A DNA stretch of 64,000 nt, taken from contig NZ_JAHLPU010000022.1 of assembly GCF_018918045.1 (NCBI RefSeq), forward strand, positions 1-64,000, given 5' to 3'. The position numbers were made by a program, and so were the translations under genes. The first letter of the stretch is position 1, and every line of letters starts with the position of its first letter. Of the stretch, positions 20,777 to 32,312 are shown piece after piece. The notes under the pieces were generated by a model. That model saw only the letters and a list, made by a program, of their open reading frames with translations, was not told the DNA's origin and made no database searches. Source of the stretch: Pseudoflavonifractor sp. MSJ-30 (GTDB lineage Bacteria > Bacillota > Clostridia > Oscillospirales > Oscillospiraceae).

Positions 20777-23137
20777 TTACGCCATCTCCTTTTTCACATC
20801 AAATTCCAAACGGACGCTTTCGCAGCCCGGGGTGCTGACTGTCAGCTTTGCCCTTCCCCCTTCGCCTACGGTACGCAGGTAGGTTCCGCCCATGCCGCCC
20901 TCGGCGGTCTGCACGGCGGGTCCGACCAGGCTCAGAGGTCCTTCCAATGTGTATTGCAGGGGCAGCTGGGCATAGGGCGCCGGATTGCCGTTTTCGTCCA
21001 GAATACGGACCCGGATTGCAGCCATATCGTAGGTATCCCCTTCCGCCAGAGTTTCCGCAGAGGCGCAAACTTCCAAATGGAGCTTCTCACTGGGGCAAAG
21101 GGTCACAGACCCCGCCAGCGCGTCTCCGTTTTTTGCGTCAAACCGCCAGCGGGTGGCTTCGCCGCCCCAGTTGCCCACATATTTTCCGTAGAGGGCAACC
21201 CCGTCCTCAAACTTCATTTTGTAACGCACCATGCACCAGGCCATTTTCAGTTTTTTCCTCAGGGGCATCCCGACAAGACCATATTTCCCGGCAGCCAGCA
21301 GGCAGTCCCGAAGGGCGTCTGCCTTGGGCTTTTCGAAATGCTCCTGGGTCTCCAGCAGCGCTCCGATGGTATCCTCCACGCACAGGGGTGGATGGGGCAG
21401 CAGCCTCCAGGGGCTTTTTTGCAAAGTGGTCACATAGGCATCGTTCTTGTACAGCTCCACCCGCTCCGCATTGGTGAACACATAGACCTTGCCAATCTGC
21501 CCCGCCGGATAGTCGCCGATATCCATGGACGAACTGACCGTTAAAGTGGGTGTCTTCCCCTGAGCGGCATAGACGCCGGCCGCCAGCTTGGGGTTTCGGA
21601 AGCTGTCCAGCACACCATGATAGCAGATTCGATCCCCGGAACCGAAGTCCTTGTGGGTAGCGTAATCAAACATGCACCAGCCAAAACAGCCCGCGTGATC
21701 TCCATCCCCATAAGCGGCGTTCAGAACTCTCGCATGCCGCAAGGCATGCTCCTGTCGGTGGGACGCGTTGTCGAAGGATTTGGTAGGGTACATATGGCCG
21801 CTGTGCTCGGAGATCAGCAGCGCCCTGTCCTTCTCCCGCATGACCTGCTTTTTCCGTTTTGCTCCGGGATTATTGCCCGTATGGGAGAAGTCGTTAAAGG
21901 CGTAGACATCCTCCAGAAGATGGCTCTTTTCCAGATACCGGACGCCGGAGGTAGCACGGCTGGGATCCAGCGCGTGGGCTATGGCATTTGTTCTTGTATA
22001 GAACGCGTCATCGTCCACACTTTCATTTATACGGACGCCCCACAGGATGATGCTGGGGTGATTCCGGTACTGCAGGACCATTTCCTCCACCATTTTGCAT
22101 GCCAGATCCTTCCAGCCGCCATCTCCGATGTGCTGCCAGCCCGGCAGTTCGGTAAATACCAGCAGGCCTGTTTCATCACAAGCATCCAGAAAGTGCCGGC
22201 TCTGCGGATAGTGGCTGGTACGCACCGCGTTGCAGCCCAACTCCTGCTTCAAAATACGAGCATCCTCCCGCTGCAGGCTTTTCGTCGCCGCATAGCCGAT
22301 ATAGGGATAGCTCTGGTGCCGGTTCAGGCCCCGCAGGAACGTCTTTTTCCCGTTCAGATAGAAGCCATCCGGCTGAAAAACCGCCGTTCGGAAGCCGAAA
22401 CGGGTCTCCCGGATGTCCAGAACTTTCCCCTTTTCATCCAGCAGCGCTGCCCCGCAGCGGTACAGCATCGGATTATCCGGCGTCCAGGCCACCGCCTGAG
22501 GATACTCCAAAACGGCGTGAATTTCCGGCTCCGCAGAAACCGTTTTGTTTGCCAGCGTCTCCCCTGCCGGGTCTTTCAGAGAAAACCGCACCTGAGCGGC
22601 AGCCTTCGGCCGATCCAGCTTCAGGCTGACATCTGCCGTCTGCAGAGTCGGCGTATGGACAAACAAATCTTCCATCCGGCATTGGGCCGACGTTTCCAGC
22701 CAGACCTCCCGGTACAGTCCGCCATAGGTCAGGTAGTCGATCACAAAGCCGAAGGGCGGCACCTGGGGATCCTCCCGGGTGTCCAGACAAACAGAGAGCA
22801 AGTTCTCCTGATTCCGGTCCACCAGATCGGTAATCTCCAAGGTAAACGCCGTATAACCGCCCCGGTGCTCCCCCGCCCGCTTTCCGTTGACAAACACCAC
22901 CGCCTGGTGGGCCGCGCCGTCAAATCGAAGGAAAAGCCTGGGAGCATCCGCAGGGACCGTGAAGCGTCTGCGGTAGCCGCAGACCATTTCATAGTCCCTG
23001 GGGGAAGCGTAGTGCAGCGGCACCTCCCGGCAGGTATGGGGCAGACGCACAGACTCCGTTTCCACGGGTTCTCCCCGCAGAAAGGCTTCGGTGCAGGTTT
23101 CCGTGAATTCCCAGGTATTGCACAGACTGTATTGCAT
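20777..23137 (-). CDS. Glycoside hydrolase family 2 protein (beta-galactosidase/beta-glucuronidase type)
   Basis: A 786-residue GH2 enzyme with no signal peptide. The N-terminal jelly-roll domain (about 1-170) includes VNGKRAGEHRGGYTAF; an immunoglobulin-like domain follows; the barrel starts near FYLNGKKTFLRGLNRHQ. The acid/base Glu lies in ILWGVRINES near 370 and the nucleophile Glu in ALLISEHSGH near 445. A C-terminal beta domain (about 690-786) has an Ig-like pattern. It probably cuts a beta-linked galactoside or glucuronide in the cytoplasm. Co-transcribed with the GH36 gene, suggesting a mixed alpha/beta-galactoside-containing glycan as substrate. Confidence 0.88.
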   Translation of the reverse strand: MQYSLCNTWEFTETCTEAFLRGEPVETESVRLPHTCREVPLHYASPRDYEMVCGYRRRFTVPADAPRLFLRFDGAAHQAVVFVNGKRAGEHRGGYTAFTLEITDLVDRNQENLLSVCLDTREDPQVPPFGFVIDYLTYGGLYREVWLETSAQCRMEDLFVHTPTLQTADVSLKLDRPKAAAQVRFSLKDPAGETLANKTVSAEPEIHAVLEYPQAVAWTPDNPMLYRCGAALLDEKGKVLDIRETRFGFRTAVFQPDGFYLNGKKTFLRGLNRHQSYPYIGYAATKSLQREDARILKQELGCNAVRTSHYPQSRHFLDACDETGLLVFTELPGWQHIGDGGWKDLACKMVEEMVLQYRNHPSIILWGVRINESVDDDAFYTRTNAIAHALDPSRATSGVRYLEKSHLLEDVYAFNDFSHTGNNPGAKRKKQVMREKDRALLISEHSGHMYPTKSFDNASHRQEHALRHARVLNAAYGDGDHAGCFGWCMFDYATHKDFGSGDRICYHGVLDSFRNPKLAAGVYAAQGKTPTLTVSSSMDIGDYPAGQIGKVYVFTNAERVELYKNDAYVTTLQKSPWRLLPHPPLCVEDTIGALLETQEHFEKPKADALRDCLLAAGKYGLVGMPLRKKLKMAWCMVRYKMKFEDGVALYGKYVGNWGGEATRWRFDAKNGDALAGSVTLCPSEKLHLEVCASAETLAEGDTYDMAAIRVRILDENGNPAPYAQLPLQYTLEGPLSLVGPAVQTAEGGMGGTYLRTVGEGGRAKLTVSTPGCESVRLEFDVKKEMA

Positions 23138-23153: not shown

Positions 23154-23235
23154 GGAATCTCTGATAAATCGGCAGGAGCTGAAAGCGAGAATTTTTGACC
23201 GCTCTTCAGCCGCAGACGGTTTATTCAAAGGTTCT
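23154..23235. repeat. Short copy of an inverted-repeat element
   Basis: This 82-base segment matches the two ends of the 161-base element at 30766-30926: the left end GGAATCTCTGATAAATCGGC and the right end with GTTTATTCAAAGGTTC are near-identical, and the AGCTGA(A/G)AGCGAGA and GCTCTTCAGCC inner blocks are shared, while the central part is missing. It occupies the gap between the GH2 start and the ATPase stop codon and ends at the base where that stop codon begins. Confidence 0.75.
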
Positions 23236-25805
23236 CAGGCTCTGCTGCTGTTGCAGACCAGGTAGAGGATCTGGTGATCCTCCGCAACCCCACGCAGCAT
23301 TTCCAGCGCACGTTTGGTATGTTCATCGTCCAGATTCACAAAGGGATCGTCAAGAATCAGGAAGGGTGTTTTCTCCCCGAAAAGAGCGTCTACCAGAGAA
23401 AGACGCATGCACAGCGAAATGCAGTCGGACAGACCCGCGCTGAAGCTTTCCGTCTCTCTGGCCGCCCCCTGGGCATCGATGCGCAGCTTCAAATCTTTAT
23501 CCACCAGCACATTGCTCAGGTCGCCGGGCAGCAGTGTTTCAGCATACCGCCGGAACCCCTCTTCGATCTTTGCCACATAGCTGTTGGCCAGAGAATCCTT
23601 TGCCTGCTCCAAAAGGGCTATGGTGCGGTCCGCCAAAGCGCATTTCCGCTCCGCCTCCTGCAGCTCGTCTTCCAGACCGGAAAGTTTATCCTCCCATGCC
23701 GGGATGCGCTCGACGCTTTCCTGCAAGCTCCGCCGCTGCTGGCGGGCATCCCGCAGGGAATTTTCCAGTTCATCCAGCCGGATTTGGATCTGCTTCTCCC
23801 GGATCTCCAGCGTTTCCGGCTCCGGAATGGGCTGCAATGGGCCGACATCCCCGTTTTTCTCCAAAAACGCGCTCAGGGCCTTCTTTGCGTTTTCCAGTTC
23901 GGCGCAGAACATTTTTCGGTTTTGTATATCATCCGCAGCCTTCTGGATGCAGGCGGCAGCTGTGGGTTCCGAAAGCGCATAGTGGTTCAAAAATTCCCGG
24001 GCTGTCTGGACAGCCTCCTCCGCCTCCTGACGATCCCGCTCATTTGCCTCTTCCAGCAGAGATTGTTTCTCCCGAAGCTGCCGGGTCAGAGAATCCTGGC
24101 TTCTCGCCGCGTCCCGCAATCTTTGAACAAAGCCGTCGTCGTAGGCCTCTCCGGGGTAATAGTACGCAAACGCCTGCCCCAATTCCGCCTGTATCTGCCG
24201 CAACTGGGCATCCGCCTCCCGGCGCTGCTGTTCCCAGGCGGCGCTTCTCCGGGACAAATCCAGATAGCGCTGCCGGTCAGCCCGCAGGTTCGCCAGTTTT
24301 TCCTCCGGCTCCGTCACATCCTCATAAAAGCGCCGCAGGAAAGCATCCCGCTGCCGCTGCAAATCGGCAAGCTCCTGCTCTTCCGCCGTGGGAATGGGAT
24401 CTTCCGTCCTGCCGTCCGGCTTTCTTATCAGCACCGCCCCAAGCGCGGCAGCAGCACCCAGAACCAGAACGCATATGCCGGTCACAGTCAGCTTTATCGA
24501 CGCCAGCACAGCCCCCAAAATCAGCAGCGCCAGTCCGAAAACCAGCAGCGGCAGGCTGGGCTTTTTTTTCGCCCGTTCCGGCTTTGTCCGCTGCATACCC
24601 TGCAGTTCCGCAATGCGTCTGCACTGCCGCTGGGTCTCCCGGATCCGGACTTCCTCCGGAACGCCCCCGGCGAAGGTGCGCTTCAACGTCTGAAAGTCCG
24701 CCTGCTCCCGTTCCGAGAGCCCGCCGGGTTCTCTGCTCCGCAGCAGGAAATCCCGATTCTGCCGCAGCTTTTCCCAGGCAGCGAACTCCGTTTCCCCGGG
24801 CCCCCCCTGCGCGAACAGCCGGTTCAGGGATTCCAGCAGCCGCGTTTCTTCCGCCGAAAGGGAAGCCTTCTCGCCGCGGCCGCTCACACGTCTCTGGGCC
24901 TCCAGCGCCCGGGTCAGGTTCTTTCTCTGTTCATCCAATTCTTCACGGGTAGGATAGCCGTTGGGATACTGTGCGTCCAGCTTCGCAAGCGCCGCTTCTC
25001 TTTCCAGAAGCTGCCCGCGCAGCTGTCCCAGATTCTCCTGCCGCGCACGCAGGGCTTTTTGCTCGTTGGCCTGCCGCAGCTGCTCCCGCAGGGCCTCCTT
25101 TTGGGCGTCTATGCCGTCTTTTTCCCCATTCAGGACGTCTATACGACGGCAAACCGTCTCCAGAGGGGCTATATCCTTCTCCGCCTCCGCAATGTCGCTT
25201 TCCAGACCGCGGCACTCCTGTCGCAGCTGGGCGATCTGTCCACCCTCGCCCTTGAAGAGCTTCAGCTTTTTGCGGTAGTCCTGAAGCCGCTTCATGGCCG
25301 TATCGTAATTGTTCAGATCATTGGTGTCCTCCACCAGATTCGTGAGCTTCGTGCGGATGGAGGTTGTGGCCGTCACATCCCGGCCGGACATCTGGGGCAC
25401 AAAGGTGCTTCTGGCAAAGGCGTCTGCATCCAGTTGAAACAGGTCTTCCCCCAGGTTCTCCGTAAAACGGGTGCTTTCCGTTCGGTTCGTCAGATCATAG
25501 AGGGCAAAACTGTCCTCCTTTTTGCCGAAATACCGGGTCACCCGATATTGGACGCCCTGATACTCAAATTCCAGGAAGCCGCCGTACTTGCCCCCCTGCC
25601 AGGGGTCATAGCGCTTGCGCTCGTTTTCCGTCAGGCTTCTTGTCCGGGACTTGGGCAGGCCGTAAAACATAGCCTTGATAAATGCCGCAAGGGTGCTTTT
25701 GCCGAAGCCATTCTCCCGGCAGAGCACATTCAGGCCCGCCACAAATTCCTGATCAAAGCCGGACAGCACGCCGAAGTTTTCAATATGGCATCTCAAAAGC
25801 TTCAT
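23235..25805 (-). CDS. YhaN/SbcC-like ATPase with an internal membrane hairpin
   Basis: An 856-residue SMC-like ATPase. The N-terminal ATPase half begins MKLLRCHIENFGVL, typical of SbcC/Rad50/YhaN, with Walker A ENGFGKST (31-38); the usual first Gly is Arg30. A long coiled coil (about 170-750) is interrupted by two adjacent hydrophobic helices at about 412-458 (LPLLVFGLALLILGAVL, ICVLVLGAAAALGAVLI). The C-terminal half has a signature-like FSAGLSDCISLCMRL and Walker B PFLILDDPFVNLDD. It overlaps the upstream nuclease by 4 bases, as YhaO-YhaN in Bacillus. The membrane hairpin would hold the complex at the membrane. Role in DNA end processing is inferred from the family. Confidence 0.85.
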   Translation of the reverse strand: MKLLRCHIENFGVLSGFDQEFVAGLNVLCRENGFGKSTLAAFIKAMFYGLPKSRTRSLTENERKRYDPWQGGKYGGFLEFEYQGVQYRVTRYFGKKEDSFALYDLTNRTESTRFTENLGEDLFQLDADAFARSTFVPQMSGRDVTATTSIRTKLTNLVEDTNDLNNYDTAMKRLQDYRKKLKLFKGEGGQIAQLRQECRGLESDIAEAEKDIAPLETVCRRIDVLNGEKDGIDAQKEALREQLRQANEQKALRARQENLGQLRGQLLEREAALAKLDAQYPNGYPTREELDEQRKNLTRALEAQRRVSGRGEKASLSAEETRLLESLNRLFAQGGPGETEFAAWEKLRQNRDFLLRSREPGGLSEREQADFQTLKRTFAGGVPEEVRIRETQRQCRRIAELQGMQRTKPERAKKKPSLPLLVFGLALLILGAVLASIKLTVTGICVLVLGAAAALGAVLIRKPDGRTEDPIPTAEEQELADLQRQRDAFLRRFYEDVTEPEEKLANLRADRQRYLDLSRRSAAWEQQRREADAQLRQIQAELGQAFAYYYPGEAYDDGFVQRLRDAARSQDSLTRQLREKQSLLEEANERDRQEAEEAVQTAREFLNHYALSEPTAAACIQKAADDIQNRKMFCAELENAKKALSAFLEKNGDVGPLQPIPEPETLEIREKQIQIRLDELENSLRDARQQRRSLQESVERIPAWEDKLSGLEDELQEAERKCALADRTIALLEQAKDSLANSYVAKIEEGFRRYAETLLPGDLSNVLVDKDLKLRIDAQGAARETESFSAGLSDCISLCMRLSLVDALFGEKTPFLILDDPFVNLDDEHTKRALEMLRGVAEDHQILYLVCNSSRA

Positions 25806-30668: not shown

Positions 30669-30701
30669 TGCTCCACCTCCTGGCACCATCTTACACCATT
30701 C

Positions 30702-30762
30702 GCAAAAAAGAAGCGCAATTCCCGCACGAACGGCACTGTTTCGAACGCGAATTGCACTTCTT
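30702..30762 (-). terminator. Terminator or attenuator between the regulators and the ABC genes
   Basis: AAGAAGCGCAATTC (30708-30721) pairs with GAATTGCACTTCTT (30749-30762), 13 of 14 positions, around 27 bases. On the minus strand the stem is followed by TTTTTTGCG and then, 33 bases later, by the ABC start codon. No promoter is evident between, so it may act as an attenuator. Confidence 0.65.
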
Positions 30763-30765
30763 AAA

Positions 30766-30926
30766 GGAACCTCTGATTAAATCGGCAAGAGCTGAGAGCG
30801 AGAGATTTTTTGACCGGTCAAAGCATCGAAAGCAGTGGAATACTTTGTGTATTTCCTGCTTTTGATGCTGAAGAGCGGGCGAAAAAGATCCGCTCTTCAG
30901 CCACAGACGATTTATTCAGAGGTTCC
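30766..30926. repeat. 161-base palindromic element with 19-base terminal inverted repeats
   Basis: The ends GGAACCTCTGATTAAATCG (30766-30784) and CGATTTATTCAGAGGTTCC (30908-30926) are inverted repeats matching at 18 of 19 positions. Inside, AGCATCGAAAGCAG and CTGCTTTTGATGCT form a second inverted pair. The structure is that of a MITE or a palindromic intergenic repeat; a shortened copy is at 23154-23235. The right end touches the stop codon of the histidine kinase, with one base shared. No coding capacity. Confidence 0.8.
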
Positions 30927-31600
30927 TATTCTTCCAGTGGCAGCATAACCTCTGTGGCGAAGGCTCCCTCCTCGCTCTGCCGGTTCACATAGCCGCCGTA
31001 CTTCTCCGCCAGGCGATCAATGCGCAGCAGGCCCAAGCCGTGGTTTTCTCCGGTCTTGGAAGAGAGATAGATCTTCCCGCTTTTTCGGGGCTTCCCATCT
31101 GCGGAATTGGTCACACAGATATAAAGCTGCTGCTTTAGAACACCGATATAGACCCGGATAAACCGCGTCTCCCCCTCCGTCTGCCGCAGGCATGCCTCCA
31201 TGGCATTGTCCAGCAGATTGCCAAGAATGGCACACAGGTCGATTTCCGAAATGGCCAGCTGCGCCGGAACAGTCGCCTTGGCGTTGACGGAAATATTCCT
31301 GCTCTTGATCAGGGACAGCTTGGAATTCAGGATGGCATCCACCATAACGTTGCCCGTCTTCAGCACCGTATCCACAGTCGTCAGGTCATCGTTCAGCTCC
31401 CAAAGGTATTTCCGCAGAGCCTCCGGGTCTTCCGTCAGGGCCAGAAGTGTTTGGATATGGTTGTGGTAATCGTGCCGCCAGCCCCGCATTTTCCGGTAGA
31501 TGTTGTCCACCTCGTCGCAGTGCCGGGTAATCAGATCATTCTGAAATGCCGCTACCCGGCGGTCAATGGCCCCGGCGAAGAGGAAATCAAAAAGCTTCAT
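30926..31600 (-). CDS. GHKL-domain sensor histidine kinase without membrane segments
   Basis: A 224-residue kinase. A coiled helix (about 10-35) leads into the phosphoacceptor-like box RGWRHDYHNHIQTLLAL; the ATPase domain has the N box LGNLLDNAMEA and G box NHGLGLLRIDRLAEKYGG, as in the AgrC/CitA-like GHKL group. No membrane helices are present, unlike most kinases of this group, which use six or seven; the signal may be cytoplasmic or come from a partner. The ATG at 31600 lies inside the end of the LytTR gene (14-base overlap), giving the usual start MKLFDFLF. Likely partner of the response regulator upstream. Confidence 0.85.
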   Translation of the reverse strand: MKLFDFLFAGAIDRRVAAFQNDLITRHCDEVDNIYRKMRGWRHDYHNHIQTLLALTEDPEALRKYLWELNDDLTTVDTVLKTGNVMVDAILNSKLSLIKSRNISVNAKATVPAQLAISEIDLCAILGNLLDNAMEACLRQTEGETRFIRVYIGVLKQQLYICVTNSADGKPRKSGKIYLSSKTGENHGLGLLRIDRLAEKYGGYVNRQSEEGAFATEVMLPLEE

Positions 31601-32312
31601 GGCTGTCTCCCGTATAGTACTGTACAAAAGCCCGGTGAACCTGCCGGGCCGCTCCTCTGGACAGCGGCAGGCGCTTTCCGCCATCCAGGATGACCTCCGT
31701 TTTCGAAAGCCGGGAAATATAGGCCAGATTTACCAGATAGGACCGGTGGCAGCGGACAAAGCCCTCACCCAGCTGTCTTTCCAGTTCGCCCATGGGCAGC
31801 TTCACCGGATAGGTTTCCTTTTCCGTAACAAGTTCCACCGTGTGAGAAAAGCTCTCCGCATACAGGACTGCCCTGGCGGCCAGCCGCACCGTCTCCCCTT
31901 CCACCGTCAGAAGCAGGAACCGTTCCCGCCTTTGCGGCGCTCCGGCGGCCCGGTCCAGAACCGCGAAAAGCTGCCCCTCCCGGACGGGCTTCATGAGATA
32001 GTGCAATGCCGCTACATCATACCCCTGGGCCATATGGTCCGGGTAGCCGGTGACAAAAACGATCTGAACGGTATCATTGTCCTTCCGGATCTGTTTTGCC
32101 AGGGAAACGCCGTCCATGGCTCCCATTTCAATATCCAGCAGCAGGATATCCCATGCCTTGTCCTCGGCATAGCGGAACAGGAAGCTTTCCGCGGAGGGGA
32201 ATCGCTCCACGGAAACGGCGCAGTCCCGGGCATCTGCCCAGCGGCGCAGAATATTCTCCACATATTCCGCATCCGCTGCGCTGTCCTCCACAATTGCGGC
32301 ACAAAACGGCAT
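31587..32312 (-). CDS. LytTR-family response regulator
   Basis: A 241-residue regulator of the AgrA/LytR type. The receiver domain (1-125) has the acidic pair IVEDS, the phosphorylation Asp60 in ILLLDIEMG, and the conserved Lys in MKPVREG near 113. The LytTR DNA-binding domain (about 135-235) has FVRCHRSYLVNLAYI, its hallmark. Such regulators bind direct repeats upstream of target promoters; the kinase and the ABC exporter pair downstream are probable targets. A TATAAT on the minus strand near 32340 could be its -10. Confidence 0.92.
   Translation of the reverse strand: MPFCAAIVEDSAADAEYVENILRRWADARDCAVSVERFPSAESFLFRYAEDKAWDILLLDIEMGAMDGVSLAKQIRKDNDTVQIVFVTGYPDHMAQGYDVAALHYLMKPVREGQLFAVLDRAAGAPQRRERFLLLTVEGETVRLAARAVLYAESFSHTVELVTEKETYPVKLPMGELERQLGEGFVRCHRSYLVNLAYISRLSKTEVILDGGKRLPLSRGAARQVHRAFVQYYTGDSHEAF

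Follow-up and report, generated by a model that had tools for sequence, protein, structure and literature searches.

The palindrome at 30766-30926 of the window, the 64,000-nucleotide stretch of Pseudoflavonifractor sp. MSJ-30 analysed here, is one copy of a family of miniature, non-coding transposable elements (MITEs) of 'Candidatus Faecousia'-like genomes. Very probably, this family is non-autonomous and mobilised in trans by a DDE transposase of the IS5 group that inserts into YTAR, and its persistence at gene ends reflects the stop codons that such insertions leave intact. The elements of the window and the genes flanking them are the following:

30766..30926, plus strand: MITE copy of 161 bp, palindromic over its full length, with a GATT-type end on the left and a GAAT-type end on the right.
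30766..30784, plus strand: left terminal inverted repeat of the 161-bp copy, GGAACCTCTGATTAAATCG.
30908..30926, minus strand: right terminal inverted repeat of the 161-bp copy, GGAACCTCTGAATAAATCG; its first 17 bases are the left end of the insertion sequence (IS) in locus L268, described below.
30867..30901: inner inverted pair of the 161-bp copy, with arms at 30867-30878 and 30890-30901.
30926..31684, minus strand: GHKL-domain sensor-kinase-like gene, ending as its homologues do; its TAG stop takes in the last base of the element.
30700..30765, minus strand: hairpin with a T run after it, immediately next to the 161-bp element (z = -5.2); probably the sensor-kinase gene's own terminator.
23154..23235, plus strand: MITE copy of 82 bp with an internal deletion.
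23235..25805, minus strand: SMC/Rad50-like ATPase gene, ending as its homologues do; its TGA stop takes in the last base of the 82-bp copy.

A sequence-only reading of this DNA had described a 161-base element with 19-base terminal inverted repeats, an inner inverted pair and a shortened version of the element elsewhere. All three are confirmed. The terminal repeats match at 18 of 19 positions; in addition to the inner pair, the whole element pairs end to end; and the 82-bp copy aligns to the two ends of the longer one and lacks its centre, the ends of the 82-bp copy matching each other at 12 of 19 positions when aligned ungapped. The same reading had placed both right ends at stop codons of minus-strand genes, in the same orientation relative to the adjoining gene, and this holds as well: the open reading frames end at 30926 and 23235, with one element base within each stop. 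The TAG of the sensor-kinase gene is made of TA from the flank and the first G of the element end, and the TGA of the ATPase gene of TG from the flank and an A, where the element end usually has G. Folding of the 161-bp element gives -92.1 kcal/mol on the plus strand (z = -13.3, none of 200 shuffles as stable) and z = -10.2 on the minus strand, while the 82-bp copy folds more weakly (z = -2.7 and -3.35, 2 of 200 shuffles per strand being equally stable). Neither window copy has an exact target duplication and the shorter one has lost its centre, hence both are probably old.

A genome-wide search, as proposed in the sequence-only reading, shows what that reading had not noted: the family is present throughout the genome from which the window comes (G000, 75 contigs totalling 2.46 Mb). 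This genome holds 11 full-length copies of 160-161 bp, with 75-100% identity to the 161-bp copy, itself counted, and about ten partial or variant copies. The element thus has the properties of a MITE, being short, non-coding, bounded by terminal inverted repeats and present in many copies. Among 60 genomes searched, family matches occur in 27 of the 37 belonging to the genus, own included, against 1 of the 23 outside it. A pattern search in named genomes gave at least 113 stretches and, among the matches listed, the genus where given is Candidatus Faecousia, the rest being assigned to Bacillota, Clostridia, Clostridiales, Eubacteriales or Oscillospiraceae. In G001, whose genome measures about 2.1 Mb, the family is strongly expanded, with 129 MITE ends at up to one mismatch (68 forward and 61 reverse). 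Blastn against phages and plasmids gave no match to the element, nor did the exact end pattern in IMG/VR, and Rfam had no match above the gathering score between positions 22900 and 31300 of the window.

The fetched loci gave 129 end pairs, or 128 unique on both strands once one duplicate was removed. As a copy was taken only if neither end had more than 3 mismatches, decayed copies are under-represented in this set, in which 100 of the 128 measure 159-163 bp. Target duplications were assessed in 124 copies, the other four being too long or having too short a flank. We found an exact duplication of 4 bp in 75 of the 124, compared with a mean of 13.1 and a maximum of 24 in 2,000 shufflings of the right flanks. 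Controls on the length of the duplication gave agreement over 5 bp in 2 copies and over 3 bp in 1, and in 0-2 when the windows were shifted outward or inward. YTAR targets, which mark the IS5 group, account for 56 of the 75 exact duplications (TTAG 25, CTAA 19, CTAG 7, TTAA 5); a passage of PMC10359306 gives this motif for IS5. The 19 others include CTTG (4) and CAAG (4). Forty-nine copies have no exact duplication, including the 161-bp copy of the window and a twin that is 98% identical to it (L002), target site duplication being a property of the family that is absent in this window copy.

A candidate autonomous relative with the same ends was reached through the end motif, which occurs in 17 of 394 genomes in an order-wide search, own included. 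In one of them (G334), a 1,289-bp segment with such ends carries a decayed transposase, and an open stretch of this protein served as query for the partner. Relatives of it occur in 13 of 136 genomes of the genus and in 24 of 394 of the order (own included in both). The candidate partner is in G495, of the same genus: a 1,224-bp insertion sequence (L268) with an open frame of 332 amino acids (327 from its ATG). Its left end, GGAACCTCTGAATAAAT, is identical to the GAAT-type end of the MITE over 17 bases, and its right end, GGAACCTCTGATTAA, to the GATT-type end over 15 bases, after which the end is partly repeated. The MITE and the L268 IS have only these consecutive bases in common. The flanks of the latter are TTAG and CTAG, not an exact duplication. 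The L268 protein matches the NCBIfam model of IS5 family transposases (NF033581) with 314.6 bits, for a cut-off of 140, and the domains PF01609 (99 bits) and PF05598 (74.5 bits), as expected of an IS5-family DDE enzyme. Judging from the shared ends, a transposase of the L268 type would mobilise the MITE in trans. The matching-end IS was found in G495 and not in G000, whose own IS5-group IS has other ends (GGCAAYACCG). In G282, local short paired ends have the variant CACTGA in common with a local IS5-type IS, as would be the case if every IS mobilised small elements of its own. When 37 genomes, 24 of them of the genus with the own one counted, were searched with PF05598 (DUF772) and PF01609 (DDE_Tnp_1), no same-end IS came up among the loci fetched.

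Short, palindromic and multi-copy elements are also found among the REP/BIME-like or IS200/IS605-type palindromic repeats, which would be moved by a tyrosine transposase. Elements of the REP/RAYT or IS200/IS605 type have such a transposase as partner and no target duplication; tyrosine-transposase elements are not known to make one. Here, the 4-bp duplication is present and the IS with which the ends are shared encodes a DDE-domain transposase, which leaves this origin with hardly any probability.

Several other transposase-bearing loci came up in these searches. A DDE match 357 bp after one MITE copy of the window's genome (L007) was rejected as parent: the MITE lies at its 5' side and there is no such end opposite within the locus. 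Two 56-59% relatives of the transposase (L269 and L270, in G032 and G005) showed none of these ends. In the window's genome (L233, G000:C2:33187-34102), a MITE copy lies directly 5' of a transposase frame of 284 codons, which reads out of the element's end. A separate IS5-group IS of the same genus (L091/L215 in G000:C49, L093/L216 in G001:C59) has ends like GGCAAYACCGCACA and is flanked by CTAA or CTAT. Finally, longer elements with similar ends occur in another genus of the family (L261, L262 and L263, in G405 and G341), with a stretch similar to CAAGGGGTATGCC, or its reverse complement, in mid-element.

The position of both window copies had suggested that the element inserts precisely at stop codons. 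We assessed this in 56 exact-duplication copies, 72 of the 128 being left out (46 without duplication, 19 with short flanks and 7 by size). Gene calls are approximate and come from a codon-usage caller, for which 27 ORFs of the window served as training set, in place of an earlier longest-ORF caller that put many copies inside ORFs. Twelve copies overlap a stop codon, another 36 are between genes and the remaining 8 within called genes; by comparison, random hits on YTAR sites would place 29.2 of 55 within genes. Copies at random positions or with ends within genes are what the sequence-only reading itself had named as speaking against its proposal; 44 of the 56 lie away from a stop, 8 of them within genes. 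The common orientation is no rule, as the touching end is of GAAT type in 9 and of GATT type in 5 of the 14 exact abutments. The idea of a site preference is supported where YTAR is concerned, not for stop codons in themselves: the 12 overlaps among 48 non-genic insertions are no clear excess over the 7.2 (pooled) or 9.2 (per locus) expected from YTAR (P = 0.13, with usable background for 47 of the 48). The coincidence with stops arises mainly because YTAR contains TAG or TAA on either strand. The motif includes TAR and its reverse complement is again YTAR, hence a TAA or TAG stop becomes a target whenever the base before it is C or T, and the duplication then rebuilds the stop.

One might still argue that the transposase prefers stop codons beyond YTAR, for example via access at the ends of translated regions. 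The 12 stops among 48 non-genic insertions go in this direction, as do 14 of 99 facing 3' gene ends that lie exactly at the element border, and the cruder longest-ORF caller does find an excess (10 of 25 against 5.8 expected, P = 0.018). But with the codon-usage caller the excess is not significant, nor is it when only YTAR targets are counted (11 of 40 against 6.1-7.7 expected, P = 0.08). We thus regard an added preference for stops as unlikely. Target motif plus loss of harmful insertions is the simplest reading of the stop-codon pattern.

Did the insertions shorten the genes that they adjoin? Our comparison is with homologues, which are not strict empty sites; 20 loci were fetched for the sensor kinase and 8 for the ATPase, own included, from 36 and 8 matching genomes. 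In the 19 sensor-kinase homologues (49-57% identical), the stop is 2-7 residues past the end of the match, and in 6 of the 7 ATPase homologues (34-46% identical) 0-12 residues past it, the seventh being cut off. None of the 19 has an element end after the stop (400 bases inspected in 18) and neither has any of the 7 (400 bases inspected in 5). As homologues end near the same point without the element, the insertions did not visibly shorten the window genes at their C-terminus.

The 90 copies with a called gene on both sides show a bias towards 3' ends, and this could also mean that the hairpin is a host transcript end signal, kept at gene ends for that role. Within 20 bases of the element border we found 37 of 99 facing 3' gene ends and 5 of 81 facing 5' ends, and convergent gaps are over-represented (22 of 90 copies; for the other gaps of these loci, 33 of 255). 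The great stability of the palindrome would suit such a role. Yet, a 3' bias would also arise from avoidance of promoters and genes, and divergent gaps hold 13 of the 90 copies, the same share as among other gaps (36 of 255). In the bases inspected, the homologues of both window genes have no element end past the stop. An intrinsic terminator has a GC-rich stem with a T run at once after it, and a terminator scan, restricted to loops of 3-8 bases, gave no terminator-like site at the 161-bp or the 82-bp copy. Directly past the 161-bp copy and on the gene's strand, a T run follows a hairpin of -29.7 kcal/mol (z = -5.2, a stability reached by none of 200 shuffles); the simple scan calls this site too, though it averages 0.9 sites per shuffle. 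Given this hairpin and the copies between divergent genes, the use as transcript end signals put forward from the sequence alone is not supported and seems very improbable. At single places, the element may have a regulatory role.

We therefore return to mobilisation by an IS5-group transposase. The enzyme would recognise the MITE ends, GGAANCTCTGAWTAAATC, act in trans and insert the element at YTAR, duplicating the four bases. A gene stop preceded by C or T would be a good target in itself and, because the duplication leaves the stop intact, insertion there would be nearly neutral and would persist. Insertions within genes would be lost, presumably purged by selection. Gene ends also fall inside the element: among the 99 facing 3' ends, 5 coincide with the TGA that the element ends carry at base 11 and 3 with their TAA at base 15, the third reading frame being open. 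One might speculate that the element is adapted to land on stops, with ends that mostly leave a clean stop, and that it forms a two-layer system with a 54-bp cassette, the palindrome offering a safe landing site to the smaller one. If so, YTAR targets would rebuild the TAR stop, and the TGA at base 11 and TAA at base 15 would close two of three frames. We find this unlikely.

The cassette itself, CCCGCAAGGGG..GCCGCATCCGTAA followed by a variable hairpin and AACGGCTGCGC, is structured and forms the tip of the hairpin in some of the MITE copies. It occurs at G000:C22:51401-51462 (L086) and six more places in that genome, and in L311-L321 from G484, G490, G460, G002, G510 and G496. Five of the G000 places are identical over 62 bases, with MITE arms that match at only 79-89%. 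Since four of the five are contig ends and their arms pair best two by two (15/20), these places are probably three copies. In G002 and G510, unrelated inverted repeats also have the cassette at their tips, judging by eye. An alignment of 12 sequences shows changes on both sides in 4 of 15 predicted pairs. Rfam gave no match to the cassette in L086 or L317, and a cassette model had 11 matches in 249 sources (L001-L101 left out), all in cassette-fetched loci. Its spread may reflect either mobility of its own or gene conversion. About 400 bases from the cassette-bearing MITE of G000:C22, there is a SAM riboswitch (L086:1983-2071, minus strand).

These results describe a family of mobile repeats, together with the element that probably moves it, in a genus represented here by metagenome-assembled genomes. 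They also show that a short target motif spelling a stop codon can make gene-end insertions look deliberate, and the same caution applies to other elements with YTAR targets. Our literature search, limited to open-licence papers, gave none on this MITE family or on IS5-type MITEs at stop codons. Nevertheless, IS5-type MITEs are already known from other bacteria, and the Faecousia element is a further family of that ordinary kind, in a gut bacterium. With the IS5 group of the IS5 family it has in common the 4-bp YTAR duplication and a same-end partner IS encoding a transposase of the NF033581 type; it differs in having no transposase gene and in being palindromic throughout. The IS5-type MITEs of Porphyromonas gingivalis are likewise small, and passages of PMC4596501 describe terminal repeats that match or nearly match those of full-length IS5-family elements in the same genomes. 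Their ends are different, however, and the duplications of BrickBuilt vary in length according to the same passages, whereas those of the Faecousia element are of 4 bp. Further small repeats of bacteria, RUP and Correia among them, are also shorter than 200 bp, with terminal inverted repeats and target duplications, and stop codons occur in every frame of RUP and of the 155-bp Correia repeat, as stated in PMC2229807. Most repeats of this type have TA at their ends in that account, whereas the duplication of the Faecousia element is YTAR.
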